Assembly: GCA_002683405.1 (NCBI GenBank)
Contig: NYTH01000030.1
Span: forward strand, 1 to 64,000
DNA length: 64,000 nucleotides
Reading direction: 5' to 3'
Source: Salinisphaeraceae bacterium
Lineage (GTDB): Bacteria > Pseudomonadota > Gammaproteobacteria > Nevskiales > Salinisphaeraceae
The translations under genes and the position numbers were made by a program. The notes beneath the pieces are model-generated. The model worked only from the letters and a program-made list of their open reading frames with translations. It did not search any database and was not told the DNA's origin. Each line of letters opens with the position of its first letter. Positions within the stretch are counted from its first letter, which is position 1. Below are positions 102 to 12,460 of the stretch, piece after piece.

Positions 102-608
102 TTTTTTCAGCTGCTGCCCCATCCGCCGGTCGGCGTTTCCGAAGTGCATCTCATACTGGGCTCGACGCTGTTCCTCATACTGGGCGCGGGACCGGCCGCA
201 CTGGGGCTGGCGTTCGGGCTGCTGCTGCAGGGGCTTTTATTCGCACCGTTTGACTTGCCGCAGTACGGGATGAACGTCACCACCTTGCTGGTGCCGCTGT
301 TTGCCATGAGTCTCGTCGCGCGGAAGATCATTCGACCCGACTCTCGCTACGTCGACCTGTCATATGCCTCCGTGCTGCGTCTGTCGGCGACCTTTCAGGC
401 CGGCATTGTGGGCTGGGTGAGCTTCTGGTGCTTCTGGGGCCAGGGCTTTTCCATGGAAACGGCACAATCGATCGGGCTGTTTGCCGGGGCCTACATGACT
501 GTTGTTCTCATCGAACCGCTGGTGGATCTGGCCGTACTTGCCGCTGCCCGGTCGCTACCTAGAGCCGACACGGGCGTCTTTGACAAGCGTCTGCACCATC
601 CCGCGTAA
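102..608 (+). pseudogene. 5'-truncated CbiM-like cobalt transport permease
   Basis: The product resembles the short proteobacterial CbiM-type energy-coupling-factor permeases that import cobalt. The segment around PVGVSEVHLILGSTLFL, the stretch FAPFDLPQYGMNVTTLLVPL and the C-terminal LIEPLVDLAVLAAA are typical, and several hydrophobic membrane segments follow. Family-like sequence begins at about base 102 (FFQLLPHPPVGV), yet no ATG, GTG or TTG lies in frame upstream of the GTG at 144, and the frame is closed by a TGA at 51-53. Family members usually carry roughly 70-80 further N-terminal residues starting with the conserved MHI. The gene is therefore probably a remnant. A shortened protein of 154 residues starting at GTG 144 remains possible. 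An eight-T run (100-107) sits at the junction. It lies just upstream of the nitrile hydratase genes, where a cobalt importer would make sense. Confidence 0.7.
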
Positions 609-709
609 CCACCGGTGATACAGCTGTCGGCCGGCATATCGGCATATTCCCAATTTGATTTCAGTGCGGCATCTCATTCGCAAAAGCCGACTGATGGAGG
701 GCATCGGGC

Positions 710-1408
710 ATGAACGGTGTACATGATCTCGGCGGCATGGACGGCATGGGTCCGGTGCATCCCACAGCCTGGGAACCGGTGTATCACGCCGAGTGGGAGA
801 AGGCGGCATTCTCTTTCTTCCCGTTTTGCGCCCGCGCCGGCATGTTCGGTCTGGATGAATTCCGCAGGCATCTCGAGCAGTTGCATCCCGTTCACTACCT
901 CACATCGTGGTACTACGAGCACTGGCTGGAGGCGGCCGAAGCAATCGGAAAGGAAAAGGGCTTCTGGACCGCCGACGAACTGCACGAGCGCGCGGCCTAC
1001 TACCTGGAATATCCCGATGCGCCACTCCCCCCGCATGATGATCCGGCGCTGGTCGAATTCGCCCAATGGGCAGTGGAGAACGGTTTCCCTACACAACGTG
1101 AATCCGCGGCCCAGGCGCAATTCTCGGTGGGCGATCGCGTGCGCATCGACAACACCATGCCGCGCCGGCATCACCGTCGCCCGCGCTATTCGATGGGGCA
1201 GATCGGAGAAATCATGCTGCATCACGGCACCCATGTGTTTCCGGATACGACCGGTAACGGAAAGGCGGAAACCTCTGAGCACCTGTATACCGTCAAGCTG
1301 AGGCAGGCCGACCTGTTCGGCGAGCAGGATGCCGACCCCAATGCCTGCCAGATGGTGGACATGTGGGAACCCTATCTCAGCCTGGCCACGGAGGAGTCCG
1401 ACAAATGA
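710..1408 (+). CDS. nthB: Nitrile hydratase beta subunit
   Basis: Beta subunit of the cytoplasmic heterodimeric nitrile hydratase, which hydrates nitriles to amides. The 232-residue protein starts [15 protein letters not shown], the family's N-terminal signature, and continues through HAEWEKAAF and [14 protein letters not shown]. The C-terminal SH3-like part ends with the conserved EHLYTV and WEPYL segments. The insert [16 protein letters not shown] is typical of cobalt-type beta subunits and absent from Fe-type ones. ATG 710 is preceded by a GGAGG ribosome site. The stop overlaps the start of the alpha gene as ATGA, so the two are translationally coupled. Beta-before-alpha order is also the usual cobalt-type arrangement. 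Confidence 0.97.
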
Positions 1409-2022
1409 GCAAGGTCAATCTCAGCCACACGCCGCATACGGACGAGGAAATCGCCGCCCGCGTGAAAGCCCTGGAAGCGGTCCTGATTGAAAAGGGGTTG
1501 ATGTCCGAGGCAGGCGTGAACCGCTTTGCGGAGATTTATGAAAACGAGGTGGGCCCGCAGCTGGGTTCCAAAGTGGTGGCCGAGGCCTGGATCAACCCCG
1601 AATTCAAGGCGCGCCTGCTCGACAACGCAACTGACGCCTGCCGCGAGCTGGGTATTGGCGGACTTCAGGGCGAACACATGATCGCGCTCGAAAACACCAA
1701 AGACGTGCATAACGTGGTGGTCTGCTCGCTTTGCTCCTGCTATCCGTGGCCGGTGCTGGGCCTGCCGCCGAACTGGTACAAATCCATGGCCTATCGTGCA
1801 CGCATCACCCGCGAACCGCGCGCATGTCTGAAAGAGGACTTCGGGCTGGAACTGCCCGATAGCGTGGAAATTCGCGTCTGGGATTCCAATTCCGAACTGC
1901 GCTACTGGATGCTGCCGCGCCGGCCGGACGGCACCGACGGCATGAACAAGGAAGAACTGGCGGCGCTGGTCACCCGCGATTCGCTGATAGGCACGGGGCT
2001 GGCCAAGACGCCACCGGCGTGA
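1405..2022 (+). CDS. nthA: Nitrile hydratase alpha subunit
   Basis: Metal-binding alpha subunit of nitrile hydratase, 205 residues. The metal claw is C107-S108-L109-C110-S111-C112 followed by [14 protein letters not shown]. In the family the second and third cysteines are oxidised and the metal is held by three Cys and two backbone amides. The whole scaffold ([20 protein letters not shown], the Tyr after the claw) is cobalt-type, but position 108 is Ser, the residue used as the Fe-type marker, rather than Thr. The ATG at 1405 was chosen over an upstream GTG at 1363 because it overlaps the beta stop (ATGA). Metal preference is therefore uncertain from sequence. Confidence 0.97.
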
Positions 2023-2420
2023 TGGTCGAGAACATGACCAGGCCCAAACCCCAGAAAAGCGATCTCGCCAAGCTGCTGAATCAGACCGAGGCACAGGTCG
2101 CCTTCAACAAGCCCTGGGAGCTCAGGATATTTTCGCTCGCCGTGGCGGCCAGCGAGGCGGGCCTGTTTGAATGGTCGGCTATTCAGGAAGCGCTCACCGA
2201 CGCCATTCGTCAATCGGAAGACGCCGGTGTCGACACATCCAAAAGCAGTCCCGGCTATTACACGCATCTAATGACCGCGCTCGAAGTGGTTCTGGTGCGA
2301 TCCGGACTGCTGGAGGCCGAAGGAATCGATGCGAGGGCGCGGGACATTCTGTCCCACCCGCCGCACAAGAATCACGTCGCGAAATACGAGCCGATTACGG
2401 TAGATCAGGGCGCCCGCTGA
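2022..2420 (+). CDS. Nitrile hydratase activator / accessory protein (P14K/NhlE type)
   Basis: A small protein of about 132 residues placed directly after the alpha subunit, as are the activators that load metal into nitrile hydratase by subunit swapping. The segment FNKPWELRIFSLAVAASEAGLFEW matches the fold shared with the N-terminal half of beta subunits (compare the beta HAEWEKAAF region). The C-terminal end is basic and His-containing (HPPHKNHVAKYEP). Start choice is between GTG 2019, ATG 2022 and ATG 2034. ATG 2022 overlaps the alpha stop by one base and is preferred. A metallochaperone role is inferred from family and position. Confidence 0.85.
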   Translation: MVENMTRPKPQKSDLAKLLNQTEAQVAFNKPWELRIFSLAVAASEAGLFEWSAIQEALTDAIRQSEDAGVDTSKSSPGYYTHLMTALEVVLVRSGLLEAEGIDARARDILSHPPHKNHVAKYEPITVDQGAR

Positions 2421-2523
2421 TCAGGACTGGGCGACAGGCAGGCCGTGGACGTCAGCCTTGAGCAGGCTCATCTGCGCAAGTGCGCGCCAACCCGAATAAT
2501 CAGATAAACCGAGGAGAGCAGCC

Positions 2524-4020
2524 ATGCCTTTGAAGCGCCCCACCATGGAGCAGATGTCGGAGATTGTTAAGGATCTCGGCATGTCGATGGAAGCAGACCG
2601 AATCAGGGAATTCCTGACCGCCATGGAGGGTAATTTCCAGGCTTATGATCTCGTCGATGCCATGCCCGACGACATGCCAGAGGTCAAGTATCCACGCACG
2701 GCCGGCCGCAAACCGGGGGCTGAAGAAAATACGCACAACGCGTGGTACGTGAAGTGCGAAATCAAGGGCGCGGCAGACGGCCCCCTGGCAGGCAAGACAG
2801 TCGCGGTAAAAGACAACGTCTGCGTCGCTGGCCTGCCCATGATGAACGGCTCGGTGACGCTGCAGGGCTATACCCCGGATATGGACGCCACGGTGGTGAC
2901 CCGCGTGCTGGACGCCGGCGCCATCGTGGTGGGCAAAACCCATTGCGAAGGCTTTTGCCTCTCCGGTGGCAGCCACACCAATTCCACGGGGCCGGTCCAC
3001 AATCCGCACAAGATGGGCTTTTCCTCGGCAGGTTCTTCGTCAGGCAGCGCGGTGGCCGTCGCGCTCGGCGAAGCCGACATGGCAATCGGCGGCGACCAGG
3101 GCGGCTCCGTGCGCCTGCCATCGTCCTACTGCGGCACGTACGGCATGAAGGCCACACATGGCCTCGTGCCCTATACCGGCGCCATGCCGATTGAAGCCAC
3201 CATCGATCATCTGGGGCCCATTACAAACTCCGTTGAAGACAACGCGCTGCTCCTTGAAGTCATCGCCGGTGACGATGGTCTGGACCCCCGGCAATACGCC
3301 CCCCGGGTCAGCCGGTACACCGAAGCACTTGGCAAGGGCGCTGACGGACTGAAAATCGGCGTGCTCAAGGAAGGCTTCGGCTTTCCGACCAGCGAGGACG
3401 ATGTCGATCAGGCGGTACGCGATGTGGGCATCAAGCTGAAATCACTCGGCGCGCAGGTGGAAGAGGTCTCGGTGCCCATGCATCTGATGGGGCCGGCTAT
3501 CTGGAGCCCCATAGCGCTTGAGGGTCTGCAGTGGCAGATGATGCGGGGTAACGGTATGGGCATGAACTGGGAGGGGCTTTACATCACCAGCCTGCTGGAC
3601 GCGCATGCCGCCTGGAGACAGCGGGCCGATGAGCTTTCGGATTCTCTGAAAATTTCCATGTTTGTCGGCGAATTCTTCATCAAGCATCACCGCGGACGCT
3701 ACTACGCCAAGGCGCAGAATCTCTCGCGCAAACTGCGGGCCGCCTATGACAAGGCGCTCTCCGACCATGATCTTCTGCTGATGCCAACCACGCCCATGAA
3801 GGCCCCGCCGCTGCCCGAACCGGATGCGCCACTGGACATCTATCTGGCGCGGGCATTCGAGAATATCCCCAACACGGCGCCCTTCGACGCTTCGGGGCAT
3901 CCGGCCATGTCCTTCCCCTGCGGCATGTCGGACGGGCTGCCGATGGGCGCCATGCTGGTCGGCAAGCACTATGACGAATCAACCATTTATCAGGCGGTGG
4001 ATGCGTTCAGTCAGGGTTAG
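2524..4020 (+). CDS. Amidase, amidase-signature family (nitrile pathway)
   Basis: Hydrolyses the amide made by nitrile hydratase to the carboxylic acid and ammonia. The 498-residue protein carries the Ser-cisSer-Lys triad of the amidase signature family: K96 in VAVKDN, S171 in AGSSSGS and S195 in DQGGSVRLPS. These numbers coincide with those I recall for the well-studied Rhodococcus nitrile-cluster amidase, as does the extended alpha-helical N-terminal domain of about 70 residues. ATG 2524 has a strong GAGGAGAG ribosome site. It lies 103 bases after the activator gene on the same strand, so it probably shares the transcript. It converges on pyrF. Confidence 0.95.
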   Translation: MPLKRPTMEQMSEIVKDLGMSMEADRIREFLTAMEGNFQAYDLVDAMPDDMPEVKYPRTAGRKPGAEENTHNAWYVKCEIKGAADGPLAGKTVAVKDNVCVAGLPMMNGSVTLQGYTPDMDATVVTRVLDAGAIVVGKTHCEGFCLSGGSHTNSTGPVHNPHKMGFSSAGSSSGSAVAVALGEADMAIGGDQGGSVRLPSSYCGTYGMKATHGLVPYTGAMPIEATIDHLGPITNSVEDNALLLEVIAGDDGLDPRQYAPRVSRYTEALGKGADGLKIGVLKEGFGFPTSEDDVDQAVRDVGIKLKSLGAQVEEVSVPMHLMGPAIWSPIALEGLQWQMMRGNGMGMNWEGLYITSLLDAHAAWRQRADELSDSLKISMFVGEFFIKHHRGRYYAKAQNLSRKLRAAYDKALSDHDLLLMPTTPMKAPPLPEPDAPLDIYLARAFENIPNTAPFDASGHPAMSFPCGMSDGLPMGAMLVGKHYDESTIYQAVDAFSQG

Positions 4021-4111: not shown

Positions 4112-4813
4112 CTATCGCGCGGCGACGGCCTGCCTGATGGCGTCCTGAATCGATTCGGCCGCGGCGCGCGGATCGGCTGCGTCGCGGATGGGGCGACCAA
4201 CGACGAGGTAGTCGGCGCCGGCGGCGATCGCCTGGGCCGGCGTCATCACCCTTTTCTGATCGTCGTCATTGTCCACCGGGCGAATACCGGGCGTGACGGT
4301 GATCAGCTTGTCCGGCGCATGCCGCCGCAGCGCTTCGAGCTCAAGACCGGATGACACGACGCCGTCACAGCCGGCTTCCAGCGCGCGGCGGGCCCGGGAA
4401 AGCACGAGGGCCTGGATATCGCAGTCGAAGCCCAGGTCGGCCAGATCGCCGCGATCCAGGCTCGTCAGCGCGGTAACGGCCAGCACCTTCAGGCGGCCTT
4501 CGGCGGCCTCGGCGGCGGCCCGCATGATGCCCTGGTTCCCGTGCACGGTGGCGAAATCCACCCCGCGCTCGGCCAGCTGCCGCATGGCCAGCCCGACCGT
4601 CGCCGGCACGTCGAAGAGCTTCAGATCGACGAACACGCGCTTGTCGCGGCGCTTGAGCTCGTCGATCAGGTCGAAAAAGCCCGGCGTGAGGTTGAGCTGC
4701 AGGCCGACCTTGTAGAAGCTGACGGCATCCCCCAGATTATCCACCAGCGCCAGCGCGCGCTCGGGCGTGGGCACGTCCAGGGCGAAGATGAGTCGATCTT
4801 TCGGGTCAGTCAT
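4112..4813 (-). CDS. pyrF: Orotidine 5'-phosphate decarboxylase
   Basis: Catalyses the last step of UMP synthesis, decarboxylation of OMP. The 233-residue TIM barrel has the usual length. It starts LIFALDV, and its catalytic Asp-Lys-Asp array is at D63, K65 and D68 in VDLKLFDVPAT. VTPGIRP and DYLVVGRPI form the phosphate-binding region near the C-terminus. The gene is 41 bases downstream of a small membrane-protein gene on the same strand and probably shares its promoter at 5128-5157. The His usual in DLKxHD is Phe here, a variation I believe occurs in other proteobacterial forms. Confidence 0.97.
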   Translation of the reverse strand: MTDPKDRLIFALDVPTPERALALVDNLGDAVSFYKVGLQLNLTPGFFDLIDELKRRDKRVFVDLKLFDVPATVGLAMRQLAERGVDFATVHGNQGIMRAAAEAAEGRLKVLAVTALTSLDRGDLADLGFDCDIQALVLSRARRALEAGCDGVVSSGLELEALRRHAPDKLITVTPGIRPVDNDDDQKRVMTPAQAIAAGADYLVVGRPIRDAADPRAAAESIQDAIRQAVAAR

Positions 4814-4854: not shown

Positions 4855-5025
4855 TCAGGTCTTGTCGCGAGACGACTTCTTGGCGGCGCCCATCACGCCG
4901 AATCCGAGCACGAGCGCAATGCCCACACCGATCCAGGCCAGCGGTGCGCCCAGCAGGTGGGCGCCATAACCCACGGCAGCCGCCACAATCAGGGCGCCGA
5001 CGAGATACAGCAGGCGATTATCCAA
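4855..5025 (-). CDS. Small two-helix membrane protein upstream of pyrF
   Basis: A 56-residue protein with two hydrophobic segments, LYLVGALIVAAAVGYGAHLL and AWIGVGIALVLGFGVMGAA, and a basic C-terminus (KKSSRDKT), so probably a membrane hairpin. I set the start at a TTG (5023-5025) because AAAAGGA lies about seven bases upstream and the protein then begins just before the first helix. Longer in-frame versions reach 5097 but have charged, unconserved N-termini. No function is recognised. Its position before pyrF resembles the small membrane-protein genes near pyrF in other gammaproteobacteria, but I see no homology to LapA. Confidence 0.6.
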   Translation of the reverse strand: MDNRLLYLVGALIVAAAVGYGAHLLGAPLAWIGVGIALVLGFGVMGAAKKSSRDKT

Positions 5026-5127: not shown

Positions 5128-5157
5128 ATAATAAGAAATGTTAATACTGGATGACAA
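5128..5157 (-). promoter_or_regulatory. Predicted sigma-70 promoter for small membrane gene and pyrF
   Basis: Read on the minus strand: -35 TTGTCA (5152-5157), an 18-base spacer, -10 TATTAT (5128-5133). Both hexamers are close to consensus in an unusually AT-rich patch. It shares its -35 bases with the opposing lysR promoter. Confidence 0.6.
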
Positions 5158-5161
5158 TTAA
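5141..5161. promoter_or_regulatory. Predicted LysR-type operator (T-N11-A dyad)
   Basis: TTAAT (5141-5145), eleven bases, ATTAA (5157-5161): a perfect five-base dyad with the T-N11-A form of LysR-family recognition sites. It lies upstream of the lysR gene and covers the -35 elements of both divergent promoters. This suggests autoregulation and co-regulation of the pyrF side. Binding is inferred. Confidence 0.55.
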
Positions 5162-5179
5162 TTAAGCTGAAGTTATAGT
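5151..5179 (+). promoter_or_regulatory. Predicted sigma-70 promoter of lysR, near-leaderless
   Basis: -35 ATGACA (5151-5156), a 17-base spacer, -10 TATAGT (5174-5179). Transcription would begin near 5186, only a few bases before the ATG at 5189, and there is no Shine-Dalgarno sequence between them. Confidence 0.6.
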
Positions 5180-5188
5180 GCCGCGGCC

Positions 5189-6109
5189 ATGCACGTCGAC
5201 GTCATCGAACTGTTCTGCGATATCGCCAGCGAACGATCCATTTCCGCGGGGGCGCGCATGCATGGCATCACGCAATCGGCGGCGTCGCAGCGGATCATGG
5301 CGCTGGAACGCGAACTGGAGACACGACTGATTGATCGAGGCACCCGCCCGCTGCGATTGACCGCCGCGGGCGAGCTTTACCGCCAGGGCGCCCGGGACAT
5401 ACTGGATCGGTACGAGCATCTGAAGCAGCGGATCGCGCGGCCCGGCCCCGCCATTCAGGGACAGGTTCGCGTGGCCGCCATCTATTCGGCGGGGATTGAC
5501 CTGCTCAACAGCGTGGCCCAGCGATTCGAGGCAGACCATCCCGGGGTGCGGGTGCAGGTGGACTATCTGCAGCCCAGCCGCATAGTGGACCGCGTGCGCG
5601 AGTCGCGCGTTGATTTTGGTATACTCAGCTATCCCCAGAAATGGCGGGACCTGGTCGCGCAGCCGCTGCGGCAGGAAACGATGGTCGTGGTATGCAGGGC
5701 GGGGCACGCGCTTGCAAGCCGTGAAGTGCTCAGCCCGGCCGACTTGGTTGACCAACCCATTGTGGGTTTCGATTCGAGTCTGCCCGTGGCCAGCCAGATT
5801 GCCAGCTATCTGCGACGCAACGGGGGTAATTCCGACCTCAGCCACAGTTTCGACAACATTGACACGATCAAGGCGTATGTCGGGCATTCGCACGAGGCCG
5901 CCATCCTGCCCCACCGCGCCGTGGCCCGGGAGGTTGAGGACGGCAGTCTTGCCGCGATCCGCCTCGAACCCTGTCTCAGCCGCCCGGTGGCCATCGTGTC
6001 ATCACCGGACCGGCCGCACACGGCAGCTGCTCAGGCGTTGATCGAGGCCCTGCGCGCTGACAGCGACGCCAGTCGCGACGAGCACGCAGACGCCGCCGTG
6101 ACCCGGTGA
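5189..6109 (+). CDS. LysR-family transcriptional regulator
   Basis: A 306-residue LysR-type regulator. Residues 1-60 form the winged helix-turn-helix (ASERSISAGARMHGITQSAA, then SQRIMALERELETRLIDR), followed by a linker helix. From about residue 90 comes a two-lobed periplasmic-binding-like effector domain beginning VRVAAIYSAG. The effector is unknown. It sits in the same direction just upstream of gltB (101 bases), as GltC does in Bacillus, so control of glutamate synthase is possible but unproven. A T-N11-A dyad upstream fits autoregulation. The acidic C-terminal tail (SDASRDEHADAAVTR) is unusual. Confidence 0.93.
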   Translation: MHVDVIELFCDIASERSISAGARMHGITQSAASQRIMALERELETRLIDRGTRPLRLTAAGELYRQGARDILDRYEHLKQRIARPGPAIQGQVRVAAIYSAGIDLLNSVAQRFEADHPGVRVQVDYLQPSRIVDRVRESRVDFGILSYPQKWRDLVAQPLRQETMVVVCRAGHALASREVLSPADLVDQPIVGFDSSLPVASQIASYLRRNGGNSDLSHSFDNIDTIKAYVGHSHEAAILPHRAVAREVEDGSLAAIRLEPCLSRPVAIVSSPDRPHTAAAQALIEALRADSDASRDEHADAAVTR

Positions 6110-6151
6110 TCCAGGCCAGCGGCCTGATCGCCAAGAACAACTGAATTTTGT

Positions 6152-6177
6152 CGCACGCGGCGTTTTCGCGGCGTGCG
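6152..6177 (+). promoter_or_regulatory. Hairpin in the gltB leader
   Basis: CGCACGC (6152-6158) pairs with GCGTGCG (6171-6177). An inner GCG/CGC stem closes a TTTT loop, with a single G opposite a G between the stems. It lies about 33 bases before the gltB start and after the lysR stop. There is no U-tract, so it may stabilise or regulate the leader rather than terminate transcription. Confidence 0.4.
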
Positions 6178-6210
6178 GCGCAACCGACACCGACGAAAAA
6201 AGGTAACGAT

Positions 6211-9200
6211 ATGCACAACCGCATCCCCGAAGCCAAGGGCCTTTACGACCCGGCCAACGAGCACGACAGCTGCGGCGTCGGTTTTATTGCCAATATTCGC
6301 GGTGAGCGTTCGCATCAAATCGTGCAGGACGCGGCCGTCATGCTGCAGAACATGGATCATCGCGGCGGCTGTGGCTGCGAGGCCAACACCGGCGATGGCG
6401 CGGGCATGCTCACCGCCCTGCCCCACGACCTGTTCGCCGCGCTGGCCAAGGACGACCTGGGCATTACCCTGCCCGAGCCGGGCCGCTACGCCACCGGCAA
6501 CATCTTTCTGCCCCAGGACGATGAGGATCGCGAATTCTGCCGTCAGGCGCTCGAGCGCTATATTGCCGAGCAGGGCCAGAACTTTCTGGGCTGGCGCTCC
6601 GTCCCCATCGATGTGGACGGGGCGGACATCGGCCCCGCGGCGCGCAAGTCGCAGCCGATCATCGAACAGATATTCATCGGCGCGGCCGACGACATCGACA
6701 ACGCCGAGTTCGAGCGCCAGCTGTTCATTATCCGCAACCGTTCCTACCGCGCCATCGAGGCGCGTGACCCGGCGCTGCGGCGGGCCTACTACATCTGCTC
6801 GCTGTCCACGCACGTGATGATCTACAAGGGGCAGCTCACCTCCGGCCAGCTCATGAAGTTCTACCCCGAACTCAACGATGAGCGCTTCACCACGCATCTG
6901 GCCATGGTGCATTCGCGCTTTTCGACCAACACCTTCCCCTCCTGGGATCGCGCCCAGCCGCTGCGCTACATGGCGCATAACGGCGAAATCAATACGCTGC
7001 GCGGCAACAAGAACTGGATGGCCGCGCGCCAGGGCCTGATGGAAAGCGAATTGTTCGGCGAGGACTTCCGGCATCTGATTCCGGTGGTCGACCCGAACAC
7101 CTCCGACTCGGGCACCTTCGACAACGCCCTGGAGCTGCTGCTGCTCGCCGGTCGGCCGCTGCCGGAAGTCATGATGATGATGATTCCGGAGGCCTGGCAG
7201 AACGACAAGGCCATGTCGCAGGAAAAGCGCGACTTCTACGAATACCACTCCTGCCTGATGGAGCCCTGGGACGGCCCGGCCTCGGTCGGCTTTACCGATG
7301 GCCGCTACATCGGCGCCGTGCTTGACCGTAACGGCCTGCGCCCCAGCCGCTACTACATTACGCACGATGACCGCTGCATCATGGCCAGCGAAGTCGGCAC
7401 CATTCAGGTGGACCCCGATAACGTCAAAAGCAAGGGCCGCCTGCAGCCGGGCCGCATGTTCCTGATCGATTTCGAGGAACAGCGCATGATCCCCGACGAG
7501 GAGATCAAGCAGCGCTTCGCCAAGGAACGCCCCTACGGCGAATGGCTGGCCGCCGAGCGCATCGAGCTGGAAGAGCTTGAGCCCAAGGACGAGCCGCACG
7601 GCTTCTACCCGGACGACCTGGTGGAGCGCATGCGCGTGTTCGGCTACACGGCCGAAACGATGCAGTTCATGCTCGTCCCGCTGATCCACTCCAAGAAGGA
7701 CCCGATCGGCTCCATGGGCAACGACGCGGCCCTGGCGGTACTCTCCGACAAGCCGCGCATGCTCTACGACTACTTCAAGCAGCACTTCGCACAGGTCACC
7801 AACCCCGCGATCGACTCGATCCGCGAAGAAACCATCATGTCGCTGGAGTGCTACATCGGGCCGGAAGGCAATCTGCTGACCGCCACGCCCGAGCATGCGC
7901 ATCGCCTGCGCGTGCCGCACCCCATCCTCACGAACGAGCAGCTCGCCGCGCTGGGCCACATGGATTACCGCAACTGGGCGTCGCGGACCATCGACATCAC
8001 CTGGCGGCGAGACAAGGGCGCGGCGGGCCTGCCGGCTGCGCTGGATCGCATATGCTCGGAAGCCGAGCAGGCGATTGACGACGGCATCGAGCTGATCATC
8101 CTGTCGGATCGCGGCATCAGCGAAGACCGCGTGCCGGTCAGCGCGCTGCTGGCCACGGGCGCCGTCCATCATCATCTGGTGGCCACCAAGAAGCGCACGC
8201 GCGCCGGCCTGATCGTGGAAACCGGCGAGGCCCGCGAGGTACATCACCACTGCATGCTCATCGGCTACGGCGCCGACGCCATCAATCCCTATCTGGCCTT
8301 CGAAGCTCTCTGGCAGGCGCGCCTGGACGGGCTGCTGGAAGCCAAGTTCACCGACGACGATCAGATTGTCCAGGCCTACCGGCACGCCACCGCCAAGGGC
8401 ATGCTCAAGGTCATGGCCAAGATGGGCATCTCCACCCTGCACTCCTACAAGGGCGCGCAGATTTTCGAGGCCATCGGCATTGGTCAGGAGGTCATCGACC
8501 GCTGCTTCGTGGGCACGGCCAGCCAGATCAAGGGCGTGGACTTCGAGGTGATCGGCGAAGAGATCCTGCGTCGTCATGCGCTGGGCCATCCGAAGCACGA
8601 CACCGAGCAGAACCGCACGCTGTCCAACGACGGCCAGTTCCACTGGCGTGCCGAGGGCGAAAAGCACGGCGTGAACCCGCAGTCCATCTACGACCTGCAG
8701 GTGGCCGCGCGCGGCGACGACCGCGAGGCCTACAAGCGCTTTTCAGAACGCGTGAATCACGATAGCCGCGAACGCTGCACGCCGCGCGGGCTGCTGCGCT
8801 TCAAGGGCCTGGAAGGCAGCAAGACCCAGCCGCCGAAGCAGGGCATCCCCATCGACGAGGTCGAGCCGGCCAAGGAAATTGTCAAGCGCTTCCGCACCGG
8901 CGCCATGAGCTACGGCTCGATCTCCAAGGAAACCCACGAGTCGCTGGCCATTGCCATGAACCGCATGCAGGCCAAATCGAACACGGGCGAAGGTGGTGAG
9001 GATTCCGATCGCTTCACGCCGGACGAGAACGGCGACAGCCGTCGCAGCTCAATCAAGCAGATTGCGTCGGGCCGCTTCGGCGTGACCAGCTGGTATCTCA
9101 CCAACGCCGACGTGCTGCAGATCAAGGTCTCGCAGGGCGCCAAGCCCGGCGAAGGCGGCGAGCTGCCGGGCTTCAAGGTGGACGAGATCATCGCCGGCCT

Positions 9201-10797
9201 GCGGCACTCCACGCCGGGCGTGGGTCTGATTTCGCCACCGCCGCATCACGACATCTACTCCATCGAGGATCTGGCGCAGCTGATTCACGATCTGAAGAAC
9301 GCCAACCCCGGCGCCATCGTCAGCGTGAAGCTGGTCAGCGAAGTGGGCGTGGGCACCATTGCGGCCGGCGTGGCCAAGGGCTATGCGGATCACATCCTCA
9401 TTGCCGGTCATGATGGCGGCACCGGTGCGTCCCCGCTGACCTCGCTCAAGCACGCCGGCATGCCGTGGGAGCTGGGCCTGGCCGAGACTCACCAGACGCT
9501 GGTGCTCAACGGCCTGCGCAGCCGCGTGGGCCTGGAGACCGACGGCCAGCTCAAGACCGGCCGCGATATCGTCATTGCCGCCATGCTGGGCGCCGAGCAC
9601 TACGGCTTCTCCACCGCGCCGCTCATTACGATGGGCTGCATCATGATGCGCAAGTGTCATCTGAACACCTGCCCGGTGGGCATTGCCACGCAGGACCCGG
9701 AGCTGCGCAAGAAATTCCTGGGCGCGCCCGAGCACGTCGTGAACTATCTGTTCATGGTGGCCGAAGAGGCGCGCGAATGGATGGCCCAGCTCGGTTTCCG
9801 CAATTTTGACGAAATGATCGGCCGCTGTGACGCGCTGGAACAAAATCGCGACATCGACCACTGGAAGACCCGGGGTCTGGACCTGTCGCCCCTGCTAACC
9901 CTCGTGCACGATCCCGAAACCGAGCAGCGCGAGGTCTACAACACGATCTCGCAGGACCACGGCCTGGAAAGGGCTCTGGACAACAAGCTCATCGCCCAGG
10001 CTGAACCGGCGCTGGAGCGCGGCGAACCGGTGTTCATCGAATCACCGGTCTGCAATACCGATCGCGTGGTCGGCACCATGCTTTCGCACGAGGTGTCCAA
10101 GCGGTGCGGCGAGGCCGGTTTCCCGGACGACAACACGGTGCACGTCAAGTTGACCGGGTCGGCCGGGCAGTCCGTCGGCGCCTGGCTACAGCACGGCCTG
10201 ACCATCGAACTGGACGGCGACGCCAACGACTACGTGGGCAAGGGCCTGTGCGGCGGCCGACTGATCATCTACCCGCCGAAGAACTCCTCCTTCAAGGCGG
10301 AGGAGAACATCATCATCGGCAACGTGGCGCTGTACGGGGCCACCAGCGGCTATGCGTTCTTCCGCGGTATGGCGGCCGAGCGCTTCTGCGTGCGCAACTC
10401 GGGGGCCAACACGGTGGTGGAAGGCGTGGGCGACCACGGCTGCGAGTACATGACCGGCGGCTGCGCCGTGATTCTCGGCCCCACCGGCCGGAACTTTGCG
10501 GCAGGCATGTCCGGCGGCACCGCCTACGTGTGGGACCCGAAGGGCGAATTCCCGGCCCGCTGCAACCCCGGCATGGTCGACCTCGAGTCGGTCAGCGACG
10601 AGGCCGATCTGCAGCAGCTCAAATCGCTCGTCAGCATGCATCTGGAAACCACCGGTTCGACGGTGGCCGAGGGCCTGCTGGCGCGCTGGGGCGAGGCCGT
10701 TGGCGAGTTCGTGAAGGTCATGCCAACCGATCTGAAACGGGTCCTGGCCGAACGCGCCGAAAAGCGGAAGGAAGAGAAGACCGCGGCCCACGCCTGA
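6211..10797 (+). CDS. gltB: Glutamate synthase (NADPH) large subunit
   Basis: Large subunit of glutamate synthase, which makes two glutamates from glutamine and 2-oxoglutarate. The 1528-residue chain has the expected order. A 20-residue propeptide ends before nucleophile C21 (DSCGVGF), followed by a class-II glutamine amidotransferase to about 430, a central domain, an FMN-binding synthase barrel (about 840-1215) and a C-terminal GXGXG helix. The 3Fe-4S ligands are C1143, C1149 and C1154 ([12 protein letters not shown]). ATG 6211 has the ribosome site AAAGGTAA. Alternative starts near 6148 would add residues absent from the family. It is followed by gltD. Confidence 0.98.
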
Positions 10798-10906
10798 CGG
10801 CCCGCGGCCAGACACATTCGACGGGCCACCGGCTCCCGGCCGGGCCGGCGGACCCCGTCAAGCGGCTGCGAGCAGCCATACAGAATTGAATAACCGGAGC
10901 ATTACC

Positions 10907-12460
10907 ATGGGCGACAAGCGTGGCTTCATGCACTTCCAGCGGGAAAAGGTCCCGTATCGCGGCGCCGAGCAGCGCCTGCACGACTTTCGCGAGCTGTACA
11001 CCAAGCCGGACGAAAAACATCTGAAAACCCAGGGCGCACGCTGTATGGACTGCGGCGTGCCCTTCTGCCAGTCGCACACCGGCTGTCCCATCGACAATCT
11101 GATCCCCGAGTGGAACGACCTGGTCTACCAGGGGCGCTGGCGCGACGCGCTGGACCGGCTGCACAAGACCAACAATTTTCCGGAATTCACCGGTCGCGTC
11201 TGCCCGGCGCCCTGCGAAGGCGCCTGCGTGCTGGGTATTACCGACCCGCCGGTGACCATCAAGGATATCGAAAACGAAATCATCAACCGCGGCTGGGCCG
11301 AGGGCTGGATCAAGGCCGAGCCGCCGGAAGAGCGCACCGGCTTTTCGGTGGGCATTATCGGCTCCGGCGCGGCCGGCCTGGCTGCGGCCCAGCAGCTCAA
11401 CCGCGCGGGGCACAACGTCACCGTTTACGAACGGCACGACCGCGTGGGCGGCCTGCTCATGTATGGCATCCCCGGGCCCAAGCTGAACAAGGACGAAGTC
11501 ATCGAGCGACGCATTCAGCAGCTGCGCGATGAGGGCATCGAGTTCGTCACCAACTGCTACGTGGGCGGTGCGGCCGAGATGGCTGCCGGCAGCGGACCCA
11601 AGGCGGACGGCATCCAGTACGTTGATCCGGCCGAACTGCGCCACAAGCACGACGCTGTACTGGTGGCTACGGGCGCCACCGTGCCGCGTGACCTGCCGGT
11701 TCCCGGCCGCGAGCTGGGCGGCATCCACTTCGCCATGGAATACCTGCACCACAACACCAAGACGCTGCTGGACAACGGCAACGTGGACGCCGCGCCGATT
11801 CACGCGAAGGACAAGAACGTCATCGTGATTGGCGGTGGCGACACCGGTACCGACTGCATCGGTACGGCCATGCGGCACGGCTGCAAGAGCATGGTGAACT
11901 TCGAACTGCTGGCCCGGCCGCCGGCCGACCGCGGGCCCGGCAACCCCTGGCCGCAGTGGCCGGTCATCTACCGGCAGGACTACGGCCACCAGGAAGCTGA
12001 AGCCGTCTTCGGCAACGACCCGCGTCGTTTTTCGCTGCTGACCAAGGAATTCATCGACGACGGCAACGGCAATGTGGCGGGCGTGAAGACGGTCGATATC
12101 GACTGGTCCAAGCCCGGCGAGAAGGCACCGTTCTCCGAGGTGCCCGACAGCGAGCGCAGCTGGGACGCCGAGCTGGTTTTGCTGTCCATGGGCTTCCTGG
12201 GACCCGAGCAGGCCATCATCGAAAAGATGGGTCTTGAAACGGACGAGCGCTCCAACGTGAAGGCCCAGTGGGGCCGGTTCGAGACCAGCGTCGACGGCGT
12301 GTTCTCGGCCGGCGACTGCCGCCGTGGTCAGTCGCTGATCGTATGGGCGATTGCCGAGGGCCGCGGCGCCGCGCACGCAATCGACGCGTACCTGACCGGC
12401 GAGGAATCCAACCTGCCCACGCCGGGCGCCGCCCAGTTCGCCCCGGCCAGCGTGGCCTGA
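10907..12460 (+). CDS. gltD: Glutamate synthase (NADPH) small subunit
   Basis: A 517-residue FAD/NADPH subunit that passes electrons through 4Fe-4S clusters to GltB. N-terminal cluster cysteines are C46, C49, C54 and C60 ([15 protein letters not shown]), with a second set in CPAPCEGAC. An FAD dinucleotide fold follows ([15 protein letters not shown]), then an NADPH fold ([11 protein letters not shown]), then the C-terminal [12 protein letters not shown] segment. ATG 10907 has GGAG ten bases upstream. The 109-base gap after gltB is GC-rich without a clear promoter, so the pair is likely one operon. A terminator overlaps its stop codon. Confidence 0.98.

Follow-up and report, generated by a model that had tools for sequence, protein, structure and literature searches.

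A predicted two-box LysR operator at the promoter of a probable, horizontally acquired lysR-gltBD operon in a Salinisphaeraceae bacterium

We examined an AT-rich segment in front of a lysR-family gene in contig NYTH01000030.1 of a Salinisphaeraceae bacterium; the window below refers to the whole stretch of 64,000 nucleotides analysed. In our judgement this segment is probably the operator-promoter of a horizontally acquired, regulator-first lysR-gltBD operon, at which the LysR regulator would control its own expression mainly by occluding the promoter (Table 1).

Table 1. Genes, candidate promoter elements and predicted LysR boxes in and around the segment (window coordinates)
Feature	Coordinates	Strand	Remarks
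pyrF, orotidine-5'-phosphate decarboxylase, native to family	4112..4813	-	~70% identity to pyrF genes of the family
Small membrane-protein gene, 56 aa from TTG 5025	4855..5025	-	relatives of 44-58% identity, family genus g2
-10 of candidate divergent promoter, TATTAT	5128..5133	-	overlaps upstream LysR box
Upstream LysR box (predicted recognition site), ATAAG-AAATG-TTAAT	5131..5145		12.1 bits, best of 63,986 window positions
-35 of lysR(-gltBD) promoter, ATGACA	5151..5156	+	aligned TTGACA in relatives
-35 of candidate divergent promoter, TTGTCA	5152..5157	-	not conserved in relatives
Predicted downstream LysR box in -35/-10 spacer, ATTAA-TTAAG-CTGAA	5157..5171		8.3 bits, second of 63,986 positions
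Weaker alternative downstream box, TTAAG-CTGAA-GTTAT	5162..5176		5.4 bits; 31 bp from upstream box, overlaps -10
-10 of lysR(-gltBD) promoter, TATAGT	5174..5179	+	9 nt before ATG; leader predicted at ~0-3 nt
lysR-family regulator gene, first of unit	5189..6109	+	Pfam LysR_substrate and HTH_1
gltB, glutamate synthase large subunit, Planctomycetota-type	6211..10797	+	lysR-gltB synteny, GltB tree
gltD, glutamate synthase small subunit	10886..12460	+	assigned by its place behind gltB and its resemblance to the gene that separates gltB from pyrF in relatives, not by a family scan

The elements of interest occupy a patch with a G+C content of 24%, against 66% for the window. Scanning 1.8 kb for consensus sigma70-like promoters returned exactly two matches, against 0.2 expected: a plus-strand promoter directed at lysR (spacer N17), and a minus-strand promoter (spacer N18) directed at a small membrane-protein gene and pyrF. 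Both were found exactly where the sequence-only reading of this segment had placed them, and their -35 hexamers do overlap on opposite strands, as it described. When the 63-bp AT-rich patch was shuffled with its dinucleotide content preserved, a plus promoter of at least 10/12 arose in 1.9% of shuffles and a minus promoter of this quality in 2.0%, and the two together in none of 5000. No relevant match to this DNA was identified in plasmid records, and a search for RNA families at the locus found none.

The first gene of the plus-strand unit encodes a LysR-type regulator by its domain content (PF00126, HTH_1, 1.2e-17; PF03466, LysR_substrate, 7.7e-45). This regulator is present in one of 85 genomes of the order and one of 369 in a sample of the class, and its best match in a genome of the family is only ~31% identical; the genus is represented in the comparison by this genome alone. 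Scanning a single genome for each species recovered 30 real orthologs of 35-53% identity, distributed across the Planctomycetota (mostly Phycisphaeraceae), Gemmatimonadota, Verrucomicrobiota and Acidobacteriota; lineage searches added more. Within the first ortholog set, lysR lies directly upstream of gltB and on the same strand at 28 of 29 loci, and is divergent from it at the other; gltB was also found beside lysR in 13 of 16 further genomes, and was not seen in the short flank available in the remaining three. No pyrF was detected by tblastn in the available loci of the lysR orthologs. Judged by gene order, the lasting partner of lysR is the co-directional gltBD downstream of it, and not pyrF.

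Identity between the window GltB and the GltB proteins encoded beside the LysR orthologs is mostly 54-69%, but the N-terminal third of the window protein is only ~42-45% identical to the GltB of its own family. In a tree of the N-terminal part of GltB, the window sequence resolves inside a group of Planctomycetota, Verrucomicrobiota, Acidobacteriota and some Gemmatimonadota (support 100/100; its exact sister is not resolved), and is separated from the sequences of its own family by long, fully supported branches. Several members of the family carry gltB, gltD and pyrF in this order and in one direction; in the window, pyrF and the small membrane gene point the opposite way, beside lysR-gltB-gltD. 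The simplest reading of these sequences is that a lysR-gltBD unit of foreign origin took the place of the native gltBD beside the native pyrF.

The promoter in front of lysR is shared with the relatives. At 22 of 23 aligned loci, the region upstream of lysR contains TTGACA, a spacer of N16/17, a -10 of the form TAnnnT and then 7-10 nt to the ATG, an arrangement that spans Planctomycetota and Gemmatimonadota; in many relatives the promoter comes close to consensus, with matches of up to 12/12. On the strength of this conservation, the lysR promoter is real. With so few nucleotides between -10 and ATG, and since no Shine-Dalgarno-like word is found upstream of the start in any of the 23 aligned relatives, the lysR mRNA is probably leaderless.

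To describe the recognition site, a symmetric box matrix was built from 23 relative loci, excluding the window, and run freely over all regions. The conserved box is 15 bp long (ATTAR-N5-YTAAT) and contains T-N11-A. The upstream box in relatives ends 11 nt 5' of the -35, and the downstream box runs from the last base of the -35 to two bases before the -10. Where both boxes score above 5 bits (30 relatives), their centres are separated by 31 bp in 25 and by 30-32 bp in 29; nine of the 25 loci with 31-bp spacing are outside the training set of the matrix, six of these nine being close kin. A few ortholog loci (L126, L132 and L136) are without recognisable boxes near the assumed start, perhaps in some of them through a wrong start codon; these count against our preferred reading. 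In the window genome we identified 7 loose box matches, against 11 for a reversed control pattern, and so no evidence of further regulon targets.

Two variants of this arrangement were observed. A Phycisphaeraceae subgroup (L039, L040, L041, L043, L046 and L048) keeps the two boxes 31 bp apart, without TTGACA at the usual place and with a TATTATATAAG-like stretch that overlaps or follows the second box. In the gemmatimonadote L055, the same regulator has another layout: gltB and lysR diverge, with a perfect ATTAGCACTGCTAAT box in the space between.

Both boxes are present in the window. The score of the upstream box was reached in 14 of 5000 local shuffles; the downstream box ends 17 nt before the ATG (usually 15-17 nt in relatives), and its position with respect to -10 and ATG matches that of the relatives; and the pair was unmatched in 4000 shuffles (0/4000). 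A box at +31 like the weaker alternative of 5162-5176 arose in 14 of 4000. The window boxes are imperfect singly and far above chance as a pair. The sequence-only reading had taken TTAAT-N11-ATTAA as a perfect LysR-type dyad and as one operator; the letters are as given (5141-5145 and 5157-5161), but they were mis-parsed, TTAAT being the right arm of the upstream box and ATTAA the left arm of the downstream box. The 21-bp unit does not qualify as one T-N11-A box; the 5131 and 5157 boxes, near the promoter, both do. In relatives the same facing arms are normally 16 nt apart and not 11. The sequence-only reading had itself named loss of the dyad in relatives of the same gene order as a refutation; by this check the 21-bp unit fails, and the two-box operator passes in the relatives that keep lysR-gltB. 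With facing arms 11 nt apart, the window centres are spaced by 26 bp, about half a helical turn off 31 bp unless the weaker 5162 box is used, which counts against our preferred reading. The downstream site of the window can be read in two overlapping registers, centred 26 and 31 bp from the upstream box; no double register was seen among the relatives, with one weak case of 29 at +26.

The gap between lysR and gltB in the window contains no comparable LysR box (best score -3.0; the best in the corresponding gaps of 34 relatives is 5.0), no sigma70-like promoter and no terminator, which makes the lysR promoter the most likely control point. We infer that lysR-gltBD is most likely transcribed as one unit; a gltB promoter of a type that was not scanned for is possible, and is a point against our preferred reading. 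A strong hairpin without a T tract was observed in this gap (6149-6180), and the gap folds with z = -3.4 relative to shuffles; the hairpin is possibly an RNA-level control or a gene-boundary hairpin.

We propose that transcription starts at about 5186-5187, the mRNA beginning at, or no more than ~3 nt from, the ATG of lysR. A LysR tetramer would bind the upstream box (centre at about -48) together with the downstream box (centre at about -22), the boxes of relatives being three helical turns (31 bp) apart. A filled downstream box, lying between -35 and -10, should exclude RNA polymerase and limit the expression of lysR and gltBD, and negative autoregulation is therefore favoured. A ligand reporting nitrogen status, perhaps 2-oxoglutarate or glutamate by analogy with GltC, would shift the downstream dimer or set it free, allowing the operon to fire. 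The same complex would incidentally cover the candidate promoter of the small gene and pyrF.

It is possible, if rather doubtful, that the regulator is instead a classical activator, LysR sitting on the upstream box and a ligand moving the second dimer towards it (the 26-bp register) into contact with RNA polymerase, with positive autoregulation as the result. LysR-family regulators are frequently activators, GltC acts on gltAB as activator and as repressor (PMC6794564), and the downstream registers of the window are reminiscent of a sliding-dimer shift between two downstream sites (PMC4730206). However, the spacer that holds the conserved downstream box belongs to a promoter which in many relatives is close to consensus and would need little activation, and the double register is absent from the relatives apart from the one weak case.

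We consider it unlikely that the operator has decayed, the 5-bp shortening after transfer having broken cooperative binding and left the promoter nearly unregulated. The spacing does fall outside the range of 29 of the 30 relatives, and the downstream box is weak; against this, the upstream box is strong, a partner box lies at exactly 31 bp, and the lysR frame is intact.

The sequence-only reading had proposed a switch, in which one dimer on one central dyad arbitrates the divergent promoters of lysR and of the small gene and pyrF; such a switch would couple nitrogen assimilation to pyrimidine synthesis. Part of this survives: a LysR control site does lie over the lysR promoter, and a bound tetramer would cover the minus promoter too. 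The single dimer and central dyad do not, and the conserved site serves lysR-gltBD, pyrF being adjacent in this lineage only; a switch between lysR and pyrimidine synthesis is not supported as the purpose of the site. The minus promoter is a 10/12 match, as rare in local shuffles as noted above, and no other candidate was found ahead of the small gene and pyrF; its leader would be ~95 nt. It shares bases with the upstream box at its -10 and with the plus promoter's -35 at its own -35, so that the two polymerases should exclude each other. Nevertheless, a minus promoter of even 9/12 was found at the same place in none of 23 relatives, no relative conserves both promoters and the dyad with the lysR/pyrF gene pair, and TGACAA together with an AT-rich upstream box can produce minus-strand hexamers as a by-product. 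The context of the small gene was also considered as a source of a conserved minus promoter; in its genus g2 relatives the gene follows another coding gene, with no comparable promoter. The minus promoter may be real, and an effect of LysR on pyrF is possible as a local and recent by-product because the LysR complex would cover it, but a dedicated switch is improbable.

The nearby region of 144-4020 holds a nitrile hydratase cluster, consisting of a CbiM-like cobalt transporter fragment, the beta and alpha subunits, an accessory protein and an amidase. The beta-before-alpha order and the cobalt transporter suggest a cobalt enzyme, whereas the metal motif of the alpha subunit is CSLCSC, the iron-type wording.

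The arrangement resembles known systems in part. In the GltC-gltAB system of Bacillus subtilis, a LysR-type regulator also lies beside glutamate synthase genes and has several boxes, one set of which blocks -35/-10, and 2-oxoglutarate and glutamate choose between the box pairs (PMC6794564); there, however, regulator and target share an intergenic region with separate promoters, whereas lysR here comes first and reads in the same direction as gltB, and the divergence from the glutamate synthase operon typical of GltC is seen neither in the window nor at 28 of the 29 loci. The window protein also scores far below the cut-offs of the GltC equivalog models (107.5 bits against 350 for NF053705; 58.8 against 300 for NF047354). 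Operators of the BenM/DntR type, with RBS and ABS sites, similarly combine a strong upstream site with a second near -35/-10, bound by one tetramer, and in models of LysR action the strong site lies around -65, weaker sites lie around -35 and -10, and activation brings a shift between the sites (PMC4730206). Those operators act in a divergent promoter region; the boxes described here would control the regulator's own operon, with the downstream box in the spacer. The acuR-acuI-dddL operon of Rhodobacter sphaeroides is likewise regulator-first and leaderless with an operator at its own promoter (PMC3017554), but AcuR is a TetR-family repressor, and the boxes and metabolism differ.

A broader view would be that leaderless lysR, the two-box operator in its promoter and gltBD form a transferable glutamate-synthase cassette that has spread across phyla and here captured pyrF, LysR occupancy setting pyrF expression and tying nitrogen assimilation to pyrimidine synthesis; we give this only a small chance of being correct. 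Among the papers searched, none combined Phycisphaerae, LysR and glutamate synthase. Our analysis predicts a regulator, a binding motif of fixed geometry and an operon for glutamate synthase in several phyla in which the control of this enzyme has been little studied. The window itself would offer a natural experiment, in which the same operator has had its spacing shifted by half a helical turn after transfer.
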